From positions 1 through 25,004 of IMG/VR virus record IMGVR_UViG_3300025070_000215: a DNA stretch of 25,004 nt; one strand, written 5' to 3'. Positions 8,513-19,221 of the stretch are shown here, piece after piece. The position numbers and the translations under genes are program-made. This stretch comes from a virus. A model generated the notes under the pieces. That model was not told where the DNA came from and searched no databases. It was given only the letters and a program-made list of their open reading frames with translations. Each line of letters opens with the position of its first letter. Positions within the stretch are counted from its first letter, which is position 1.

Positions 8513-8541
8513 ATTATATCCTACATTAAAAGTCTTGTCAA
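8513..8541 (-). promoter_or_regulatory. Consensus sigma-70 promoter
   Basis: Minus strand TTGACA (8541-8536), exactly 17 bases, TATAAT (8518-8513). The -35 contains the TGA stop of the 67-aa gene. The predicted start near 8506 leaves about 30 untranslated bases before ATG 8475, with a GGAG site inside. It would drive the PhoH/PMM part of the block. Confidence 0.8.
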
Positions 8542-8741
8542 GTCTTTTTTGCCATGAGTTTTGCTTTTAACGAATCCATCTCTGATGTGGCAACATTCTT
8601 ACGAGCCTGACTCTTTGGTGTTAGAGGGGGAATGTCATCAGTGTTGGGTTTGGATGGTGGGTTGTTGTAGTATCCAGTACGAACACGCAACTCCTCTATC
8701 CTAACCTTCAAGTCCCTGATGGTTTTCTCCCTCTCATCCAT
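8538..8741 (-). CDS. Small hypothetical protein (67 aa)
   Basis: 67 aa. It starts with a coiled-coil-like MDEREKTIRDLKVRIEELRV, then a proline-rich linker with PPSKPNTDDIPPLTPK, and ends with a helix (EMDSLKAKLMAKKT). The ATG shares a base with the stop of the DUF454 gene (TAATG). No family recognised. The tail overlaps a perfect -35 box. Confidence 0.55.
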   Translation of the reverse strand: MDEREKTIRDLKVRIEELRVRTGYYNNPPSKPNTDDIPPLTPKSQARKNVATSEMDSLKAKLMAKKT

Positions 8742-9160
8742 TATTTAAACCAACCCAGTTTTTCACCTGCATCAATTCGTCTCTGCGACTCTTCTTTTGA
8801 GCCAGGAAATCTCCATGCCCATGTCACAATTAATGCGAACAAGATGAACAGGTATAAGGTTGCCTTTGGATTGCCTGTACCGAAATACATTGCCGCCAAG
8901 GATGTTGACATTACTGCCATCATCAAATACTTTGCCTTCTGTGGATATACTTTATAAGTCTGCCACTCTGTGATAAACGGGCCAAAGGTCTTATGGTTCA
9001 TGATCCAGTTGTGGAACTTCTCACTAGACTTTGCGAAACAGAACGCTGCACCTAGAATAGGAGTACTCCAAGGAATGCCTGGCAGAATAACTCCCAGATA
9101 AGCAATACCTAAACACAGGATACCACAGACAAACCAAAACGCCTTTTTAATTTTACTCAT
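8741..9160 (-). CDS. DUF454 (YbaN-like) inner-membrane protein
   Basis: 139 aa. The DUF454 signature is clear: LGVILPGIPWSTPILGAAFCFAKSSEKFHNWI, then FGPFITEW and later YLFILFALIVTWAW. Two or three membrane helices. E. coli YbaN has the same shape, and no activity is known. ATG 9160 is used because AGGAAAG lies before it; an in-frame ATG at 9217 would add 19 residues and starts 1 base after the PP-loop gene's stop, so it is a possible alternative. It is the fourth product after nrdB in the operon. A host-derived origin is likely (inference). Confidence 0.75.
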   Translation of the reverse strand: MSKIKKAFWFVCGILCLGIAYLGVILPGIPWSTPILGAAFCFAKSSEKFHNWIMNHKTFGPFITEWQTYKVYPQKAKYLMMAVMSTSLAAMYFGTGNPKATLYLFILFALIVTWAWRFPGSKEESQRRIDAGEKLGWFK

Positions 9161-9218
9161 TTTACTTTCCTTTTCCCAGATCCTCTTTCCAAAGAATGCT
9201 GATTCTAATTGATTCATG

Positions 9219-9905
9219 TTATAATCTTTTCTGTACTTCGTTGAGGGCCCATTCCCTCTCGTAATCCCACCAACACTTACCACATGGTTTATTTCCATTG
9301 GTTGGTGTGGTGCACGAAACTGTTTGATGAAACAATTTCATTTGTTTAAAGTCTTTGTAACATTGTATTACAAATCTTTTATCTATATTCTTGAATGGAG
9401 TAGTCTCTAAAGGCCAGTCATCCCATGCACTTTCTGACTCACTCATGTAATTTGGTATTCTACGAATCCTCTGGTTACTCACCGTTTTTGGCCAACTGTT
9501 CTGCACCTTGTATGGTGGCCCAAGAGTTATCCCAGTAATGTGTCTCGTGAATGTTGCACCTGCAAGCGCCTTCCTGAGTTTTGTGATATAATCCATTTTG
9601 TTATCCTCACCATTAGAATTAAACACTGTAGAGATAGGCCACTTGATATCTACAGTAGGAAATTTTCTGATAAGAGTAGGGAGAGTTTTTACGGCGGCAT
9701 TAGAATCATGTGGTACATGAATGTCATACCCATTGTAAGGTTGTATAGAAGAATTTAGTTTTAGTTTCTTGATTGTGTTTGCAACAAGGTAACATAACAT
9801 AAGACTATCTGCACCGCCTGACATGGCAATACCAATAATATGTCCATCCCAAAAATCTGGATCTGGTAGAATATCTACCTTACCAAATTTGTTTTCATAA
9901 ATCAT
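9219..9905 (-). CDS. PP-loop ATP pyrophosphatase, QueC/ExsB-like
   Basis: 228 aa. A PP-loop SGGADS occurs at residues 29-34 in [17 protein letters not shown]. The middle is divergent. The C-terminus has a zinc-site-like patch [18 protein letters not shown] (Cys 198, 208 and 211), similar in layout to QueC, which has four cysteines; here a fourth is replaced by Trp/Asp. QueC makes 7-cyano-7-deazaguanine, the precursor of queuosine and of deazapurines in some phage DNA. Other PP-loop members activate carbonyls for amidation or thiolation, so the substrate is open. Its ATG overlaps the ALAS stop by ATGA, suggesting the two proteins are made together. Confidence 0.7.
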
Positions 9906-11095
9906 AACAAAACTTTCTTCAAGGCTTGAACGAGTTCCACCATCATCACATCATCATGGAATGGGGTTGGTGCAATTCGCAATCTTTCGGTTCCTTCTTC
10001 GACAGTGGGATAATTAATAGGTTGGATATAAATCCCATGATTATTTAGAAGATCGTCAGATGCTTCTTTACACTTGAATGCATTGTTTACCATCACAGGA
10101 ACGATATGAGTACAGGCACTCTCATGTACTGGAATGCCTGCGTACTTCAACATTTCTTTTAGGGTGCTTGCTCTTTCTTGATGGACTTGACGGATGGTAG
10201 TGTGGTCACTGAGATATTTGATTGAGGCGATTGCTCCAGCGCAGATGACGGGCGAGATACTTGTTGTAAAGATGAACCCAGAAGCCAAGGCCCTAATAGC
10301 GTCAACGACAATACTATCCCCAGCAATATAACCACCTTGAACCCCAAAGGCTTTTCCCAGTGTTCCATTTATAATATCTACCCTCTCTACTAAACCTAAC
10401 TTTTCACAATAACCACCACCAGTGTCTCCATATAGACCCACTGCATGTACTTCATCGATATAAGTGATTGCACCATATTTATCTGCAAGATCACATATTT
10501 CTTCAATTTTCCCTACGTCACCATCCATAGAATACACAGATTCAAACACGACACATGGAGTTTTGTTTTCCATCTGTGCCAGTTTGAGACAGTGTTCTAG
10601 ATCTTCCATGTTATTGTGTTTGAAGATCATCTTACTCGCACGACTATGTTTCATACCCATAATCAATGAGGCATGATTCTTGTCATCTGAAATAAATCTT
10701 ATGTTGGGGATGATACGACTGAGTGCAATGAGTGACCACTCATTTGCAACATATGCACTGGAGAATAATAGTGCACTTTCTTTTTGGTGGTGTTGTGCAA
10801 GAACTGCTTCAAGTGTCACATGATAATGTGATGTACCACCGATATTTCTGGTTCCACCAGAACCTGCACCAGTCTGATCTAGTGCGGTATGCATGGCATC
10901 AATAACATATTGATTTTGTCCCATGCCGAGATAGTCATTAGAACACCAGTTAACAATGTTTTTTGGTGCATATTTTCCATACCAGATTGAGCGGGGAAAC
11001 TTCCCCCGCTCTCTGAGTATATCGTTGAAGACTCTATATTTGCCTTCGGTTTTAAATTGATGAATTACGTCTTCAAAATAATCTTTTGATATCAT
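9902..11095 (-). CDS. hemA: 5-aminolevulinate synthase (ALAS)
   Basis: 397 aa, a full-length fold-type I PLP enzyme that condenses glycine and succinyl-CoA to 5-aminolevulinate (C4/Shemin pathway). Alphaproteobacterial ALAS motifs run throughout: [54 protein letters not shown] (Asp214, His217), GTLGKAFG (Schiff-base Lys248) and [11 protein letters not shown] with [11 protein letters not shown]. The catalytic Lys, Asp and His fall at the positions known for the Rhodobacter capsulatus enzyme. Other members of the same fold (KBL, BioF) lack the INYPTV and [10 protein letters not shown] combination. The start ATG follows the Grx stop with 39 bases between and a weak ribosome site. It appears in the nrd operon as an auxiliary metabolic gene. 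Strong hairpins lie upstream (11112-11133) and within the 5' coding part. Confidence 0.92.
10989..11011 (-). other. Stable stem-loop in 5' part of ALAS gene
   Basis: GAGCGGGG / CCCCGCTC, an 8-bp perfect stem with a 7-base loop, 84-106 bases after the ATG. It lies inside coding sequence; function unknown. Confidence 0.5.
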
Positions 11096-11134: not shown

Positions 11135-11365
11135 TTAGGCTGCCTTCTTGACATACTCCATGAACTGTTCATACCCACCAATCGAATGTCCATCAACTTT
11201 AATTTGAGGGAAAGTTCTTGCAGATGGGAACATGGATAACATTTCGTCACGATTAAAGTCCACACCAAGTTTCTTATAGGTAAAATTCATATGTTGAATT
11301 TCCGCAAGATTAATTGCCTTCGTGCAATATGCACAATTGTCTTTACCGTATATTTCTACTGTCAT
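11135..11365 (-). CDS. Glutaredoxin (CAYC), probable ribonucleotide reductase partner
   Basis: 76 aa. VEIYGKDNCAYCTKAI puts the C-x-x-C at residues 11 and 14; TFPQIKVDGHSIGGYEQF contains the cis-proline and the GG-hx glutathione motif. This is a classic glutaredoxin. Its start overlaps the NrdB stop by ATGA, so it is co-translated with the reductase subunits and is the likely electron donor to the C-terminal CxxC of NrdA. T4 nrdC is the functional analogue. The length is normal for a Grx. Confidence 0.9.
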   Translation of the reverse strand: MTVEIYGKDNCAYCTKAINLAEIQHMNFTYKKLGVDFNRDEMLSMFPSARTFPQIKVDGHSIGGYEQFMEYVKKAA

Positions 11366-12495
11366 AAGCTGAACCCCTTGAATGTTTCGTCTGATACGTC
11401 TTGTTTAGTTCCACCAGAAACATAAGATGTAATCTCTGTCTCTTGTGGTGCGACTTGGACTTCTGCACCTGAGATCCACTTCTGTGTCCAAGGAAGAGGA
11501 TTGTTTTTAACATTGTAAGGAGATTCAAGATCAACGTGTTTCATACGTCGAGTGCAGATATACTCAATATAATCACTTAGTAAGGCTGCGTTAAGACCAA
11601 TCATGGAACCATCTTTAAACAAATAGTTAGCCCATGCTTTCTCTTGGTCTACTGCGTCGACGAACATTTTAATACATTCGTCTTTTGTTTCTTCTGCGAT
11701 CTTTGCAAAGTCTGGATCGTCTTTATTCTTGAGTGTACGTAACATCAACTGAGTAGAACCCAAGTGAAGGTTCTCATCACGTGCAATCAATTTAATGATC
11801 TTCGCATTACCTTCCATCTTCTTGAGTTCTGCGAATGCCCATGAACATGCAAAAGATACGTAAAAACGTACGCCTTCAAGAATGTTCACACTCATCAATG
11901 TCAACCAAAGAAGTTTTTTCAGTTCGTAGAGATCTACTTTCACATTACGTGTGCCATTAATCTGATGTGTACCTTCACCTAACAAGTTGTACCACATACT
12001 CATTTCAATTAATTTGTCGTAATAGTAAGAGATATCATCTGCACATTCAACAATCTCTTGGATGTCCATAAGTTCATCAAAGACTTTACTTGGGTTGCTG
12101 TACACGTTACGAATGATGTGTGTGTACGAACGACTGTGGATTGTCTCAGAGAATGTCCATGTCTGTATCCAGTTCTCAATCTCTGGTAAACTTACAATAG
12201 GTGCGAACGCCTCTACGGGCGCACGACCTTGTACAGAGTCCAATAGGATCTGTCTCTTTAGGTTACTTGTAAAAATATGTTGTTCATGTTCAGTAAGACT
12301 TTTGAAGTCCTTTGCATCCTTATAGATATCAACTTCCTCTGGACGCCAGAAGAAACCAAGTTGACTATCAGTCAGTTTATCAAAGGATTTGTATTTCAAC
12401 TGATCATAACGTTGAATGGTTGGGCCCCCTGTGGGATCCAAAAACATTTTTACTTTTGTGTGATCTGCTTTGTTTTGTGTGTCAAAAACGCCCAT
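11362..12495 (-). CDS. nrdB: Ribonucleoside-diphosphate reductase beta subunit (class Ia)
   Basis: 377 aa. Residues of the diiron-tyrosyl centre are present with a constant offset of 2 from E. coli NrdB: Asp86, Glu117, His120 and radical Tyr124 in TFSETIHSRSYTHIIRN; the second half has GVRFYVSFACS and IARDENLHLGS. ATG 12495 is preferred to ATG 12537, because an AGGGA site precedes it and the product then begins like E. coli NrdB; the longer form would run into the end of nrdA. The C-terminal FKGFSL would dock to NrdA. It makes deoxynucleotides for phage replication. It is followed by a Grx gene with ATGA overlap. Confidence 0.94.
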   Translation of the reverse strand: MGVFDTQNKADHTKVKMFLDPTGGPTIQRYDQLKYKSFDKLTDSQLGFFWRPEEVDIYKDAKDFKSLTEHEQHIFTSNLKRQILLDSVQGRAPVEAFAPIVSLPEIENWIQTWTFSETIHSRSYTHIIRNVYSNPSKVFDELMDIQEIVECADDISYYYDKLIEMSMWYNLLGEGTHQINGTRNVKVDLYELKKLLWLTLMSVNILEGVRFYVSFACSWAFAELKKMEGNAKIIKLIARDENLHLGSTQLMLRTLKNKDDPDFAKIAEETKDECIKMFVDAVDQEKAWANYLFKDGSMIGLNAALLSDYIEYICTRRMKHVDLESPYNVKNNPLPWTQKWISGAEVQVAPQETEITSYVSGGTKQDVSDETFKGFSL

Positions 12496-12505
12496 TTCTT
12501 TTTCC

Positions 12506-14824
12506 CTATATCGTGCAGCTTTCGCAATAATCGTCATATTCTTCGTCCGAACCTTCGAACTCAGATCGTTCTATCGGTGTCTCTTGCATCATCTTGTCGA
12601 CATCAACTTCGCCCTGACCGTCATACGTATTGAAGTAGTACAGTTGTTTTCCACCGTACTTGTAAAACATTAATACGTGTTGCAACATCTCACTCATAGA
12701 AATTTTTTCATTCTCTGAGAAGATAGGGTTATAACTGGTGTTGATACTAATACCTTGGTCAATATATTTCTGTAGTACAGCCATAATTTTAAGGTAACCT
12801 ACAGGAGACTTTTGATCCCATAGGAGATCATATTTATTCTTTAATCTTTTGTACTCAGGCACAACTTGTTTCAAAACGCCATGTTTTGACTGTTTTACTG
12901 AAATCAATGAACGAGGTGGTTCGATACCATTCGTCGCATTTGCAACCTGCGCACTTGTTTCACTAGGCATCAACGCCATCAGAGTAGAGTTTCTGATACC
13001 AGTCTTCTTCAACTGATTACGCAGACTCTTCCATGGCATACGTTCTTTATGTTTAACCAACTCATCAAGATCAGTTTTGTATGTCATGTTTGGTGTGATA
13101 CCATGTCCATATTTTGTTTCCATAACACCACTTGGTGCGCCCTTCTCAGCTGCGAGATCTGCAGATGCTTTGATCAGATAGTATGACCATGCTTCAGCGT
13201 ACTCATCAATCAGTGACAAACCTTGTGGGGTGATGTCCTGATAAGTCAAATCGTTTTTCGCCATGAAGTATGCGAAGTTAATAATGCCCACTCCAAGAGG
13301 TCTACGTTTCTCCGTAGAGAGTTGTGCCGCAAGGATAGGATAGTTCTGATAAGACAACAACGCATCCAGTCCACGAACAGCGAGAGTACAGGCACGTTCA
13401 AAGTCTCTTGGTGAACGAACATTACCCCAGTTGATTGCAGACAGTGTACAGAGACTAATCTCACCATCAGGGTCATTTATATCATGTAATGGTTTGGTTG
13501 GCAAGTCTATTTCGGCACAAAGATTCGATTGTCTGATTGGTGCAACCTCTGGTAGGAATGAACCATGATCATTTGCATTGTCTACGTTCTGTAGATAGAT
13601 ACGTCCTGTGTTCTTACGCTCTTCCATAAAGGAACTGAACAAATCAATTGCCTTGATAGTTTTCTTACGAAGTCGTGTATTACGTTCTGCACGTTCATAG
13701 ATTTCTTTGAAGGCATCTTGATCTGCAAAGAATGCATCATACAAGCCAGGCACGTCACTAGGAGAGAACAAAGTAATGTCACCACCAGAGATGAGACGTT
13801 CGTACATGAGTTTGTTGAACTGCACACCATAATCCATATGACGCACACGGTTCTCTTCTGTACCCTTGTTGTTCTTCAATACCAACATATCTTCGACTTC
13901 ATAGTGCCAGATAGGATAGTAGATAGTCGCCGCACCACCACGAACACCGCCCTGTGAACAGGACTTAGTTGCAGACTGGAAGTGTTTGTAGAAAGGAATG
14001 ATGCCTGTATGGTATGCGTCACCTTTACGAATGGGAGATCCAATCGCTCGGATCTGACCACCACCGATACCAATACCTGCTTTCTGACTTACATATTTGA
14101 CAATAGAAGAACTAGTTGCGTTGATACTATCAAGGCTATCCCCAGACTCAATAAGAACGCAAGAGGAAAACTGACGCATAGGCGTACGGACACCGGCCAT
14201 GACGGGCGTAGGAAGGCTAATATCGTGTAAACTAATAGCGTCATAATAATCTTTCGCCCATTTTAATCTTTCTTCTTTAGGATAGTCTGCGAACAACGTG
14301 GCTGCAATTAATGCATAACACATCTGTGGAGTCTCAAAGATCTCTCCTGTGACACGGTTCTGACATAGGTATTTACCACGTAGTTGTTCCATGGCAACAT
14401 ATGTTAGGTTCTCATCACGACCATGTTTGATGAATGAGTCAATCTTTGCCCACTCTTCGTCATTATACTTATCTATAAGTTCTTCATCATAGAAACCACT
14501 TTCGATGTTCCTGACAACCAATTCCTTTACAGTGCATGGTTCGTACTGGCCATATACTTCTTTACGAAGTGCATAGTTAATCAAACGTCCACCAACGTAT
14601 TGGTAGTTCGGTGTGTCCTCATCAATCAGATCAGCCGCAGCCTTGATTAACGTCTCTTGGATTTCCTTCGTCGTTATACCATCATAAAATTGAATTTGAC
14701 TTTTAATTTCTACTTCACTTGGACTTACACCAGTGATGTCATCACATGCGTGAAAAACTACCTTGTGAAGTTTTTCGATGTCGAGGAGTTCTTTAGAGCC
14801 GTCTCTCTTGGTTACTTGCGTCAT
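12506..14824 (-). CDS. nrdA: Ribonucleoside-diphosphate reductase alpha subunit (class Ia)
   Basis: 772 aa. An N-terminal ATP-cone (TKRDGSKELLDIEKLHK) is followed by the catalytic barrel. Redox and catalytic residues map with a steady offset of 3 from E. coli: Cys222 (FSSC), Cys436 and Glu438 with Asn434 (SNLCAEI), Cys459 (SLCTLS), the YY pair in LYYFNTYDGQ, and a C-terminal CESC (767 and 770) for re-reduction by glutaredoxin. All the expected residues are intact, so the enzyme should be active. The ATG follows an AGGA site. An intact ATP-cone suggests dATP feedback control is kept, which is a point to check, since some phage NrdAs have lost it. Confidence 0.95.
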   Translation of the reverse strand: MTQVTKRDGSKELLDIEKLHKVVFHACDDITGVSPSEVEIKSQIQFYDGITTKEIQETLIKAAADLIDEDTPNYQYVGGRLINYALRKEVYGQYEPCTVKELVVRNIESGFYDEELIDKYNDEEWAKIDSFIKHGRDENLTYVAMEQLRGKYLCQNRVTGEIFETPQMCYALIAATLFADYPKEERLKWAKDYYDAISLHDISLPTPVMAGVRTPMRQFSSCVLIESGDSLDSINATSSSIVKYVSQKAGIGIGGGQIRAIGSPIRKGDAYHTGIIPFYKHFQSATKSCSQGGVRGGAATIYYPIWHYEVEDMLVLKNNKGTEENRVRHMDYGVQFNKLMYERLISGGDITLFSPSDVPGLYDAFFADQDAFKEIYERAERNTRLRKKTIKAIDLFSSFMEERKNTGRIYLQNVDNANDHGSFLPEVAPIRQSNLCAEIDLPTKPLHDINDPDGEISLCTLSAINWGNVRSPRDFERACTLAVRGLDALLSYQNYPILAAQLSTEKRRPLGVGIINFAYFMAKNDLTYQDITPQGLSLIDEYAEAWSYYLIKASADLAAEKGAPSGVMETKYGHGITPNMTYKTDLDELVKHKERMPWKSLRNQLKKTGIRNSTLMALMPSETSAQVANATNGIEPPRSLISVKQSKHGVLKQVVPEYKRLKNKYDLLWDQKSPVGYLKIMAVLQKYIDQGISINTSYNPIFSENEKISMSEMLQHVLMFYKYGGKQLYYFNTYDGQGEVDVDKMMQETPIERSEFEGSDEEYDDYCESCTI

Positions 14825-14840
14825 AGTTGATCCTAATGTT

Positions 14841-15536
14841 CTAGTTGTTAATGTAATTGTCTGCGAGAGGGAATATTTCAGTAATTGCCTTACCTACTGC
14901 CTTCGCAAGTTCCATATGTTCTTTTTGTGTACCATTGGCAGAACGCAAGTCAACGTAATGAATCCACGAACGGATTGTTGCGTTTGCATATAGTCTTGAT
15001 ACAGTCAAACCTTCTGGCAGTAGGGCACGTGCTTGTTCTTTTGCAATACCCTGTTCAACTGCCCATTGGTAGTTCTTCTTCACCAATTCAATTACACCAG
15101 TCTGTTTACGATTCCACTCAGCAATCAAGTCTTGGTTCTGCTGATTGTCAATCAAGGAGGGGTCACCTTCTATTTCGATAGAGTTCTGGCGGTTCTTTGG
15201 ATCTTGTAAACGACATTCACGTTTTACGAATTCCAGTTCTTTTACAGGATCAGCATATCTCTGAGAAAATTCTTGAAAACACATAGAACGATGTCGTAGT
15301 AGTTGTCTTGCAATATCACGAGTTGTTTCAATTTCGATACATGCGTTCACCATTTCAAACGGTGACCAATGTTTATGTTTTGCAAGGTAGTTGAGTAATT
15401 TGTCTGAAGTCTTAGAGTTCAGTTGGTTATCGGGGTTAGATACTCTGGCACAGTATGCAATCAAGTCCTGTACATCGTCTAATCCAATGATGCTGTCCTT
15501 GATAGGTTGACTGCAAGATATTAATCTAACTTTCAT
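14841..15536 (-). CDS. thyX: FAD-dependent thymidylate synthase
   Basis: 231 aa. The ThyX signature RHRx7S is present at residues 81-91 (RHRSMCFQEFSQRY), with IETTRDIARQLLRHRS before it and SRLYANATIRSWIHYVDLRS near the end, the region for dUMP binding. ThyX methylates dUMP using FAD, NADPH and methylene-THF and replaces ThyA in many marine phages. ATG 15536 with GGAG 6 bases upstream is preferred to the GTG at 15548 that precedes it in the same frame. It overlaps the primase stop by 4 bases and leads into nrdA with 16 bases between. Confidence 0.93.
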   Translation of the reverse strand: MKVRLISCSQPIKDSIIGLDDVQDLIAYCARVSNPDNQLNSKTSDKLLNYLAKHKHWSPFEMVNACIEIETTRDIARQLLRHRSMCFQEFSQRYADPVKELEFVKRECRLQDPKNRQNSIEIEGDPSLIDNQQNQDLIAEWNRKQTGVIELVKKNYQWAVEQGIAKEQARALLPEGLTVSRLYANATIRSWIHYVDLRSANGTQKEHMELAKAVGKAITEIFPLADNYINN

Positions 15537-16546
15537 GTTCTTCTCCACTTTTGTAATCTAAAGGTTGCTTCTAAACCTTTGAACGTATTGTCACGTATTA
15601 TATCTTCGACATTTGACATGCCATTTAGATACATCTCATTTATGTCTTTACCGACTGTCGAAGTCTGTTCAGGCCAGATACAAATTCTGTATCCTTTGTT
15701 GATCACCTTCTCCATTCGTTTGTGTATCTCTTTGTTGCGTGGTTCTGCGTCAAAGACAAATACAGCATTCTCAATATTATCGAAACCGTCGACGTTTCCT
15801 TCAGCGCCTGCCATCGCAACCGCATTCGAGAGGAATAAACTGTCAATAGCTCCTTCAACAACATGATACTCTTTACTAAAGTCAACAGTATCGAGACCGA
15901 AAACCTTTGGACGATCTTCGAACATTATAGTCAAATAACGAAGACCATTAGGATCAAATCCACGTGCCGATACCCCAAATACTTTACCGTTTTGATCAAT
16001 GAATGGGATAATTAGGCGAGGATCGTCCTTCTCTACGTTGTCGAATTTATTAGGTATAATTCCGTTAATCCATTTCTTGAACGTCTTGGTATAATACAGA
16101 CGATAATGGTGACGTGCCGGAATGTGTCTCTTACTTATATATCTTTTGATTGCGTGATTGTGATGCAACTGAGAGACTTTTTTTATAGAACGTAGGGGAT
16201 TTTTCTTTAGAACAGTCAGTTTCTTTTCGGTAGTATCTTTGAAAGAAAAAGGTTCTTTTTTATCCTTTTTGATAAACTTCTCAGCCACCCAATCATTGTA
16301 CATGAGGTGGTCTACAGTCTTGAGGAAGTTGGAGAAGTTGTGACTGGCGCCACAGTTGTGACAATAGTAGAAGAACTTGTTCTCCTTCTCTAACAACCAA
16401 CCACGTGACTTACTGCGTGACTTCTGAGAGTCACCGCAGATAGGACATCTAAAGTTTATCTTGTAGGGATTTGTGTTGCGTATGCGAAAGTTCTGTAAGC
16501 GCCCAGACAACATCTGGGCGTACTGAAGATCTGTAAAGTCAACCAT
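15533..16546 (-). CDS. DNA primase, T4 gp61-like (zinc finger plus TOPRIM)
   Basis: 337 aa, near the 342 aa of T4 gp61. Zinc-binding cysteines at 34 and 37 (RCPICGDS) and 62 and 65 (YYCHNCGAS) open the protein. A lysine-rich linker follows. The TOPRIM core is YHVVEGAIDSLFLSNAVAM (Glu) and AVFVFDAEPRNKEIH (Asp-x-Asp-like). It synthesises RNA primers for the lagging strand, working with the phage helicase. ATG 16546 lies downstream of an in-frame TTG at 16564; neither has an obvious ribosome site, and the ATG gives the usual start. Preceded by the consensus promoter at 16586-16614, with a predicted RNA start only about 33 bases before the ATG. Confidence 0.88.
   Translation of the reverse strand: MVDFTDLQYAQMLSGRLQNFRIRNTNPYKINFRCPICGDSQKSRSKSRGWLLEKENKFFYYCHNCGASHNFSNFLKTVDHLMYNDWVAEKFIKKDKKEPFSFKDTTEKKLTVLKKNPLRSIKKVSQLHHNHAIKRYISKRHIPARHHYRLYYTKTFKKWINGIIPNKFDNVEKDDPRLIIPFIDQNGKVFGVSARGFDPNGLRYLTIMFEDRPKVFGLDTVDFSKEYHVVEGAIDSLFLSNAVAMAGAEGNVDGFDNIENAVFVFDAEPRNKEIHKRMEKVINKGYRICIWPEQTSTVGKDINEMYLNGMSNVEDIIRDNTFKGLEATFRLQKWRRT
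16500..16520 (-). other. Stable stem-loop in 5' part of primase gene
   Basis: CGCCCAGA / TCTGGGCG, a perfect 8-bp stem with a 5-base loop, starting 26 bases after the primase ATG. No T run follows, so it is not a terminator. It could slow translation or protect the message. Confidence 0.5.
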
Positions 16547-16585
16547 AATATAAAAAGTATCCAAGTGTGTTTAACTGTTAGAGAG

Positions 16586-16614
16586 ATTATAACACTAGAT
16601 TAAAGCTTTGTCAA
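16586..16614 (-). promoter_or_regulatory. Consensus sigma-70 promoter before primase
   Basis: Minus strand TTGACA (16614-16609), 17 bases, TATAAT (16591-16586). The -35 box contains the TGA of the preceding gene. It is the obvious driver of the primase-thyX-nrdA-nrdB-Grx-ALAS operon. Host polymerase should recognise it, which points to early expression. Confidence 0.85.
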
Positions 16615-18840: not shown

Positions 18841-19221
18841 CTATTCCTTCTTTAGTAGAGGATTCAAATATTCACATTCAAATCTCTTTAGTGACTCCTC
18901 TATTATATCATCATTGACTTCTTCTGTCAACAGCGAATCATCACTAAAGTGTTGCCATTCTCTAATTAAAAACAATGCAGCCGCATAGGATGCAAGTTTT
19001 GATTGTCCGCCAGGGACTTTTGCAAGTATTTTTTTGAGGTTCAATATCATGAGATCGAAGATCCCAAACGCATCACGTTGAGCTTTCTTCAGAAAGTTCT
19101 TTCTCTTGATAAGGATCTTACCCTTATCATCTATGATACCCTGTTCATATGCAGGCCACTTGTCAAATGGTGTGACAAGTTTCCTTATGAAAGAATATAC
19201 TAGAAATAAATCGACTACCAT
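18841..19221 (-). CDS. Conserved phage protein (126 aa), LVYSFIRKLVTPFDKW type
   Basis: 126 aa. Conserved-looking core: FLVYSFIRKLVTPFDKWPAY, EQGIIDDKGKILIKRKNF, then a helix LNLKKILAKVPGGQSKLAS and YAAALFLIREWQ. I recall homologs in several T4-like marine phages, without assigned function. No membrane segment. Its ATG shares one base with the stop of the upstream gene (TGATG), so translation is coupled. An 8-bp hairpin lies 41-63 bases into the gene, and a consensus promoter lies near its 3' end. Confidence 0.7.
   Translation of the reverse strand: MVVDLFLVYSFIRKLVTPFDKWPAYEQGIIDDKGKILIKRKNFLKKAQRDAFGIFDLMILNLKKILAKVPGGQSKLASYAAALFLIREWQHFSDDSLLTEEVNDDIIEESLKRFECEYLNPLLKKE
18902..18930 (-). 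promoter_or_regulatory. Candidate intragenic sigma-70 promoter
   Basis: Minus strand TTGACA (18930-18925), 17 bases, TATAAT (18907-18902), inside the 3' part of the 126-aa gene. It would begin transcripts about 60 bases before the 65-aa gene and the late cluster to its left. Confidence 0.45.
19158..19180 (-). other. Stem-loop in 5' part of the 126-aa gene
   Basis: ACTTGTCA / TGACAAGT, an 8-bp perfect stem with a 7-base loop. It lies within coding sequence, 41-63 bases after the ATG. Confidence 0.4.

Follow-up and report, generated by a model that had tools for sequence, protein, structure and literature searches.

A viral 5-aminolevulinate synthase lacking the haem-feedback histidine, and its DUF454/YbaN-family neighbour

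Viral 5-aminolevulinate synthases (ALAS) have been described in aquatic phages, where they are associated with hemO and pcyA/X (Wegner et al. 2024, Nat Commun 15:8783; PMC11480375). The vALAS of CB_2 complements E. coli ST18 and forms 5-ALA (PMC11480375), and a 2026 estuary study counts viral alaS as one of the viral auxiliary genes that are transcribed (PMC13390420). Because viral ALAS, its neighbours and its activity are published (PMC11480375), a finding of this type is already known in kind, and the copy analyzed here is, taken alone, one more well-placed example. Relative to the main text of PMC11480375, the new elements are the linkage of ALAS to DUF454, the absence of His342 from 211 of 211 viral ALAS and the apparent adoption of a phage ALAS by the Neisseriaceae bacterium PsAf.

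The viral ALAS and its haem-feedback site

The window (the whole stretch of 25,004 nucleotides that was analyzed) encodes an intact 397-aa ALAS on the minus strand (11095..9902). The initial annotation had placed a 397-aa ALAS with complete catalytic residues at exactly these boundaries, leaving the strand unstated, and both model scores and residue numbering bear the identification out. The protein scores 553 bits against the TIGR01821 equivalog model, more than 200 bits over the cut-off of 338.55, and falls under the respective cut-offs of the KBL, BioF and SPT models; no PHROGs family covers it. It shares the active site of the R. capsulatus ALAS (HemA, 2BWN), with 51% identity over 382 aligned residues: the PLP lysine K248, D214 and H217 carry identical numbers in both proteins, and R21, N54, T83, N85, I86, H142, S189, T245, S279, T365 and R374 (R. 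capsulatus numbers) are likewise shared. The 14 catalytic or substrate positions show no variation across the 211 viral ALAS compared.

The two enzymes differ, however, at His342 and Cys400, which Wegner et al. name as haem-feedback residues frequently lost in viral ALAS (PMC11480375). In the window ALAS the position of His342 is occupied by Lys, and the protein terminates ahead of Cys400. A histidine was found at this position in none of the viral ALAS examined (0/211), so that loss of the feedback histidine is general in this set; its absence from all viral ALAS is not reported in the main text of PMC11480375. This consistent loss gives sharper outline to the view that the entry enzyme carried by phages is deregulated. 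The window gene resembles the vAlaS of Wegner et al. in enzyme, catalytic residues, separate phage clade and missing haem-feedback residues, one relative being active, as well as in standing alone, or in a "broken cassette", with respect to hemO/pcyX. It differs from them in lying in a primase-thyX-nrd-grx row, after which come a QueC-like gene specific to this lineage and DUF454.

Gene row, haem oxygenase and bilin reductase

The minus-strand row begins with a DnaG-like primase (15533..16564; weak CHC2 zinc-finger match to PF01807, under cut-off) and continues with the thymidylate synthase gene thyX (14841..15548; PF02511), the ribonucleotide reductase genes nrdA (large subunit, 12506..14824; PF02867) and nrdB (small subunit, 11362..12537; PF00268), a glutaredoxin gene that is the upstream neighbour of ALAS (11135..11365; PF00462), ALAS itself, a QueC-like ORF, DUF454, small phage genes, a second glutaredoxin gene and phoH. 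The single-strand order from primase to ALAS agrees with the nrd operon placement proposed in the initial annotation, which had also called the operon early and consensus-promoted. A sigma-70-like consensus promoter is indeed present upstream of the row (16586..16614, minus strand; TTGACA-17-TATAAT with TG before the second hexamer, 12/12 match), and L004, a 94%-identical relative, has a site at an equivalent distance upstream of ALAS; for the timing, we infer that ALAS may be read early from this primase promoter, 5.5 kb upstream. Three perfect TTGACA-N17-TATAAT sites were observed in the window versus 0.02 expected, all on the minus strand. The second (8513..8541, 12/12 match) lies downstream of DUF454 and is directed away from the cassette, and the third, also an exact match, is at 18902-18930. 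Similar sites are present in close relatives of this virus. A candidate T4-late promoter in the gap between glutaredoxin and ALAS was rejected, as CTAAATAC has a single occurrence in the window, no more than chance predicts, and the 117-kb contig described below shows no enrichment of it.

The weakly QueC-like ATP-pyrophosphatase ORF between ALAS and DUF454 (9219..9905, minus strand) overlaps the ALAS stop (ATGA), and its match to PF06508 (22.3 bits, cut-off 22) is confined to the C-terminal 57 residues. Besides the identical L002 and L003, a QueC-like gene occupies this place in 1 of 79 loci. It is limited to this virus, for which reason it was rejected as a conserved ALAS partner, and it is a recent insertion.

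An IMG/VR contig of 117,770 bp (3300006990_000013, here G001) covers essentially the whole window at 99.96% identity and belongs to the same virus. It encodes a T4-like baseplate hub/lysozyme, a DNA polymerase, an SbcC-like protein and a DnaB helicase, together with four tRNAs (Arg, Pro, Trp, Gly), tRNA genes being absent from the 25-kb window. Two Nol-like carbamoyltransferase genes (phrog_1601) are seen in L421, a record of the same virus, at 890-2224 and 13992-15587. On the ALAS strand, G001 also carries a haem oxygenase gene (hemO, 76297-76680) and a PcyX-type bilin reductase gene (76943-77488), the product of which is nearest to phage PcyX 5OWG (4e-34, versus 1.6e-17 for PcyA). ALAS, hemO and pcyX therefore share one genome without being contiguous, the latter two lying about 30 kb from ALAS. 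The combination of ALAS with haem oxygenase and bilin reductase is shared with the hemO-pcyA-alaS island of Bradyrhizobium ORS278 (as cited in PMC11480375), which differs in gathering the genes into a single island that also has a phytochrome gene and in encoding PcyA, whereas this virus has them ~30 kb apart and a PcyX-like enzyme. Among 36 ALAS contigs, hemO and bilin reductase co-occur in the identical 11, all of which contain DUF454.

These observations are, with high probability, best explained by a functional, unregulated viral ALAS that feeds haem and bilin production and has DUF454 as a proposed membrane partner, an explanation that draws on the observed gene identity, residues, phylogeny, linkage and purifying selection. 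During infection the viral ALAS would make 5-aminolevulinate from glycine and succinyl-CoA, and its synthesis of 5-ALA is most likely, as supported by homology and by the published assay of a relative. Since the haem-feedback site is missing, 5-ALA supply would be unregulated and haem would not halt tetrapyrrole flux. Judging from gene content, the phage haem oxygenase would probably open haem, with release of iron, and PcyX would reduce the opened haem to bilin; DUF454, made beside ALAS, may reside in the inner membrane and help to handle haem, its precursors (porphyrin) or iron.

A tenable but less probable target is cofactor haem or B12 rather than bilins, with ALAS sustaining host respiratory haem or cobalamin during infection, as proposed by Wegner et al. 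for non-phototrophic hosts (PMC11480375). Neither hemO nor bilin reductase was detected in 25 of the 36 ALAS contigs, including a contig of 147 kb (G003), and ALAS is thus found also where no bilin branch was detected; many of these 25 contigs are, however, fragments. Moreover, the present virus does possess hemO and PcyX, which consume haem, and no cobalamin or late haem genes were recognised among the window genes scanned.

Linkage of ALAS to DUF454/YbaN

The DUF454/YbaN-family membrane protein of the window comprises 158 aa from an ATG at 9217 (8741..9217, minus strand; ORF open from 9298) and is a clear match to PF04304 (97.8 bits, gathering cut-off 35.1). In loci fetched by ALAS alone and grouped at 82% identity into clusters that are non-independent events, 23 of 31 ALAS clusters have a DUF454 gene no further than 10 kb from ALAS, and in 18 of these it is on the same strand and within 1 kb. 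The two genes usually overlap or abut, often by a four-base overlap. No neighbour of viral ALAS is more conserved than DUF454, which ranks first by ALAS clusters among neighbour families within 6 kb, followed by an epimerase-like family (21) and nrdA/nrdB (19). Their order and strand differ among lineages, with DUF454 coming first and ALAS ~410 bp on in L153, L156, L159 and L190, and with DUF454 on the opposite strand, 0.5-4 kb from ALAS, in others. From the DUF454 side, 56 of 80 viral loci (a set seeded from ALAS-linked members) have an adjoining ALAS; the other 24, many of them fragments, have no detected ALAS in their record, and in two of these hemO and bilin reductase lie beside DUF454. 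In a 266-kb phage contig (L181, 8759-10420) with no ALAS detected in its record, DUF454 divergently adjoins a hemO-bilin reductase pair.

The viral DUF454 proteins are under strong constraint. The AlphaFold model is helical (mean pLDDT 82, pTM 0.53) and has no match in the PDB at E ≤ 0.001. No known function was found for the family, and the DUF454 neighbours in about 30 alphaproteobacterial loci display no haem theme or enrichment. DUF454/YbaN receives no mention in the main text of Wegner et al. (PMC11480375).

Much of the linkage pattern could stem from one ancestral linkage. Viral DUF454 forms one clade versus the sampled alphaproteobacteria (100/98), for which a single ancestral association with ALAS is sufficient, and a single-clade topology for all phage ALAS is not rejected (p-AU 0.56). 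Nevertheless, we find it doubtful that DUF454 simply belongs to the syntenic core of this phage group, its linkage to ALAS being inherited and functionless: the linkage persists across differing positions and strands, DUF454 accompanies more ALAS clusters than do the nrd genes, and a search of the isolated phages in INPHARED returned only weak partial DUF454 matches (≤39% identity) in records resembling bacterial carry-over. The association of DUF454 with ALAS is a strong lead to the role of a widespread membrane family without known function.

Could the module serve iron release instead, with ALAS feeding a haem turnover that mobilises iron or recycles host haem, and DUF454 acting as an iron or haem membrane protein? 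The family is iron-linked: E. coli ybaN belongs to the Fur regulon (PMC7157518, PMC10164565), a member is up-regulated in Avibacterium under iron restriction, and DUF454 adjoins hemO in L181. DUF454 also occurs near T11SS loci that hold haem oxygenase, both occurring often and significantly around T11SS loci of cluster 1 (haem oxygenase 137/1111, DUF454 118/1111), the known cargo of which includes haemophores (PMC12282271). The viral members differ in forming their own clade and in adjoining ALAS. We consider this iron reading unlikely, since haem that is made and then broken down yields no net iron and a module for iron only would have no need of ALAS.

Phylogeny, a louse symbiont and the host

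A first tree combined phage, alphaproteobacterial, other bacterial, KBL and BioF sequences, and a second added human ALAS2. The window ALAS falls within a phage ALAS clade (support of 99 in the quick tree and 100/99 in the careful tree), and SH-aLRT support of 100 separates ALAS from the KBL and BioF rows, so the placement inside KBL or BioF that the initial annotation had named as counter-evidence is not seen. The gene is under purifying selection and kept functional, with dN/dS of ~0.10-0.13 versus three nearer relatives (L004, L005, L009) and lower still versus L011, a more distant relative with saturated synonymous sites; the earlier view that it is no passive relic thus holds. Although ALAS, KBL and BioF belong to one alpha-oxoamine synthase superfamily, it is extremely improbable that the gene is just a relic carried passively or that it codes for a KBL/BioF-type acyltransferase; this reading is contradicted by the fully supported split in the tree, the 14 invariant positions (n = 211) and a dN/dS of ~0.1. 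The nearest alphaproteobacterial ALAS is from Pelagibacteraceae (60% identity), near which two smaller phage ALAS lineages are also placed, and relatives are encoded on at least 560 IMG/VR contigs.

One bacterial sequence nested among the phages is of particular relevance. Neisseriaceae bacterium PsAf, a louse symbiont (host Polyplax serrata; PMC9376444), encodes an ALAS (WNLJ01000010.1, 6001-7185; L205) that groups with 11 phages (100/98) and is 73% identical to that of L079. Its context is bacterial and chromosomal, between patatin and efflux genes and near LptD and PdxA, and PsAf appears to have domesticated a phage ALAS gene; a phage-clade ALAS in PsAf is absent from the main text of PMC11480375. 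The draft genome contains hemB, and within this draft, which may be incomplete, no GluTR N-domain, no HemL above cut-off and no DUF454 were found. Replacement of the C5 route by the phage-type ALAS is therefore likely rather than proven. The case suggests that phage auxiliary genes can take over a core host pathway. We give about even chances to the joint proposition that DUF454/YbaN is a fourth, previously undescribed component of a phage tetrapyrrole module (ALAS and DUF454, with or without haem oxygenase and bilin reductase), a membrane protein that handles haem, porphyrin or iron and is needed when 5-ALA synthesis escapes haem feedback, and that at least one bacterium, PsAf, has domesticated a phage ALAS as a substitute for the C5 route.

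The initial annotation, which was right about a genuine functional ALAS and made no mention of prior publication, hemO/PcyX, DUF454 or the lost feedback site, had taken the gene to mark an alphaproteobacterial host. This is not supported, given the ALAS-clade genes in Bacteroidota, Actinomycetota and Burkholderiales bins and a valaS phage assigned a gammaproteobacterial host by prediction (Wegner et al., PMC11480375), and ALAS is therefore not a host marker. Host assignment was also attempted through the DNA polymerase, for which the best isolates (cyanophages and phage C48C1) are ~44% identical, and through NrdA, for which the best isolate is 62% identical; both were rejected, the isolates having unrelated hosts. 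In INPHARED, no isolated phage has this ALAS gene above 35% identity. Some apparently bacterial ALAS were not counted as such because they probably lie on phage contigs that ended up in bacterial bins, being nested in the phage clade with DUF454 alongside, and such seemingly mis-binned contigs would mislead host inference. They comprise ALAS-DUF454 pairs in Rhodobacteraceae Water_Bin34 (L202, L206, L260), Neomarinimicrobiota RS350 (L203) and Flavobacteriales SAT2756 (L204). ALAS-clade genes were further observed in many Chitinophagaceae/Bacteroidota bins and two Actinomycetota bins (L222-L257), beyond the textbook alphaproteobacterial range.
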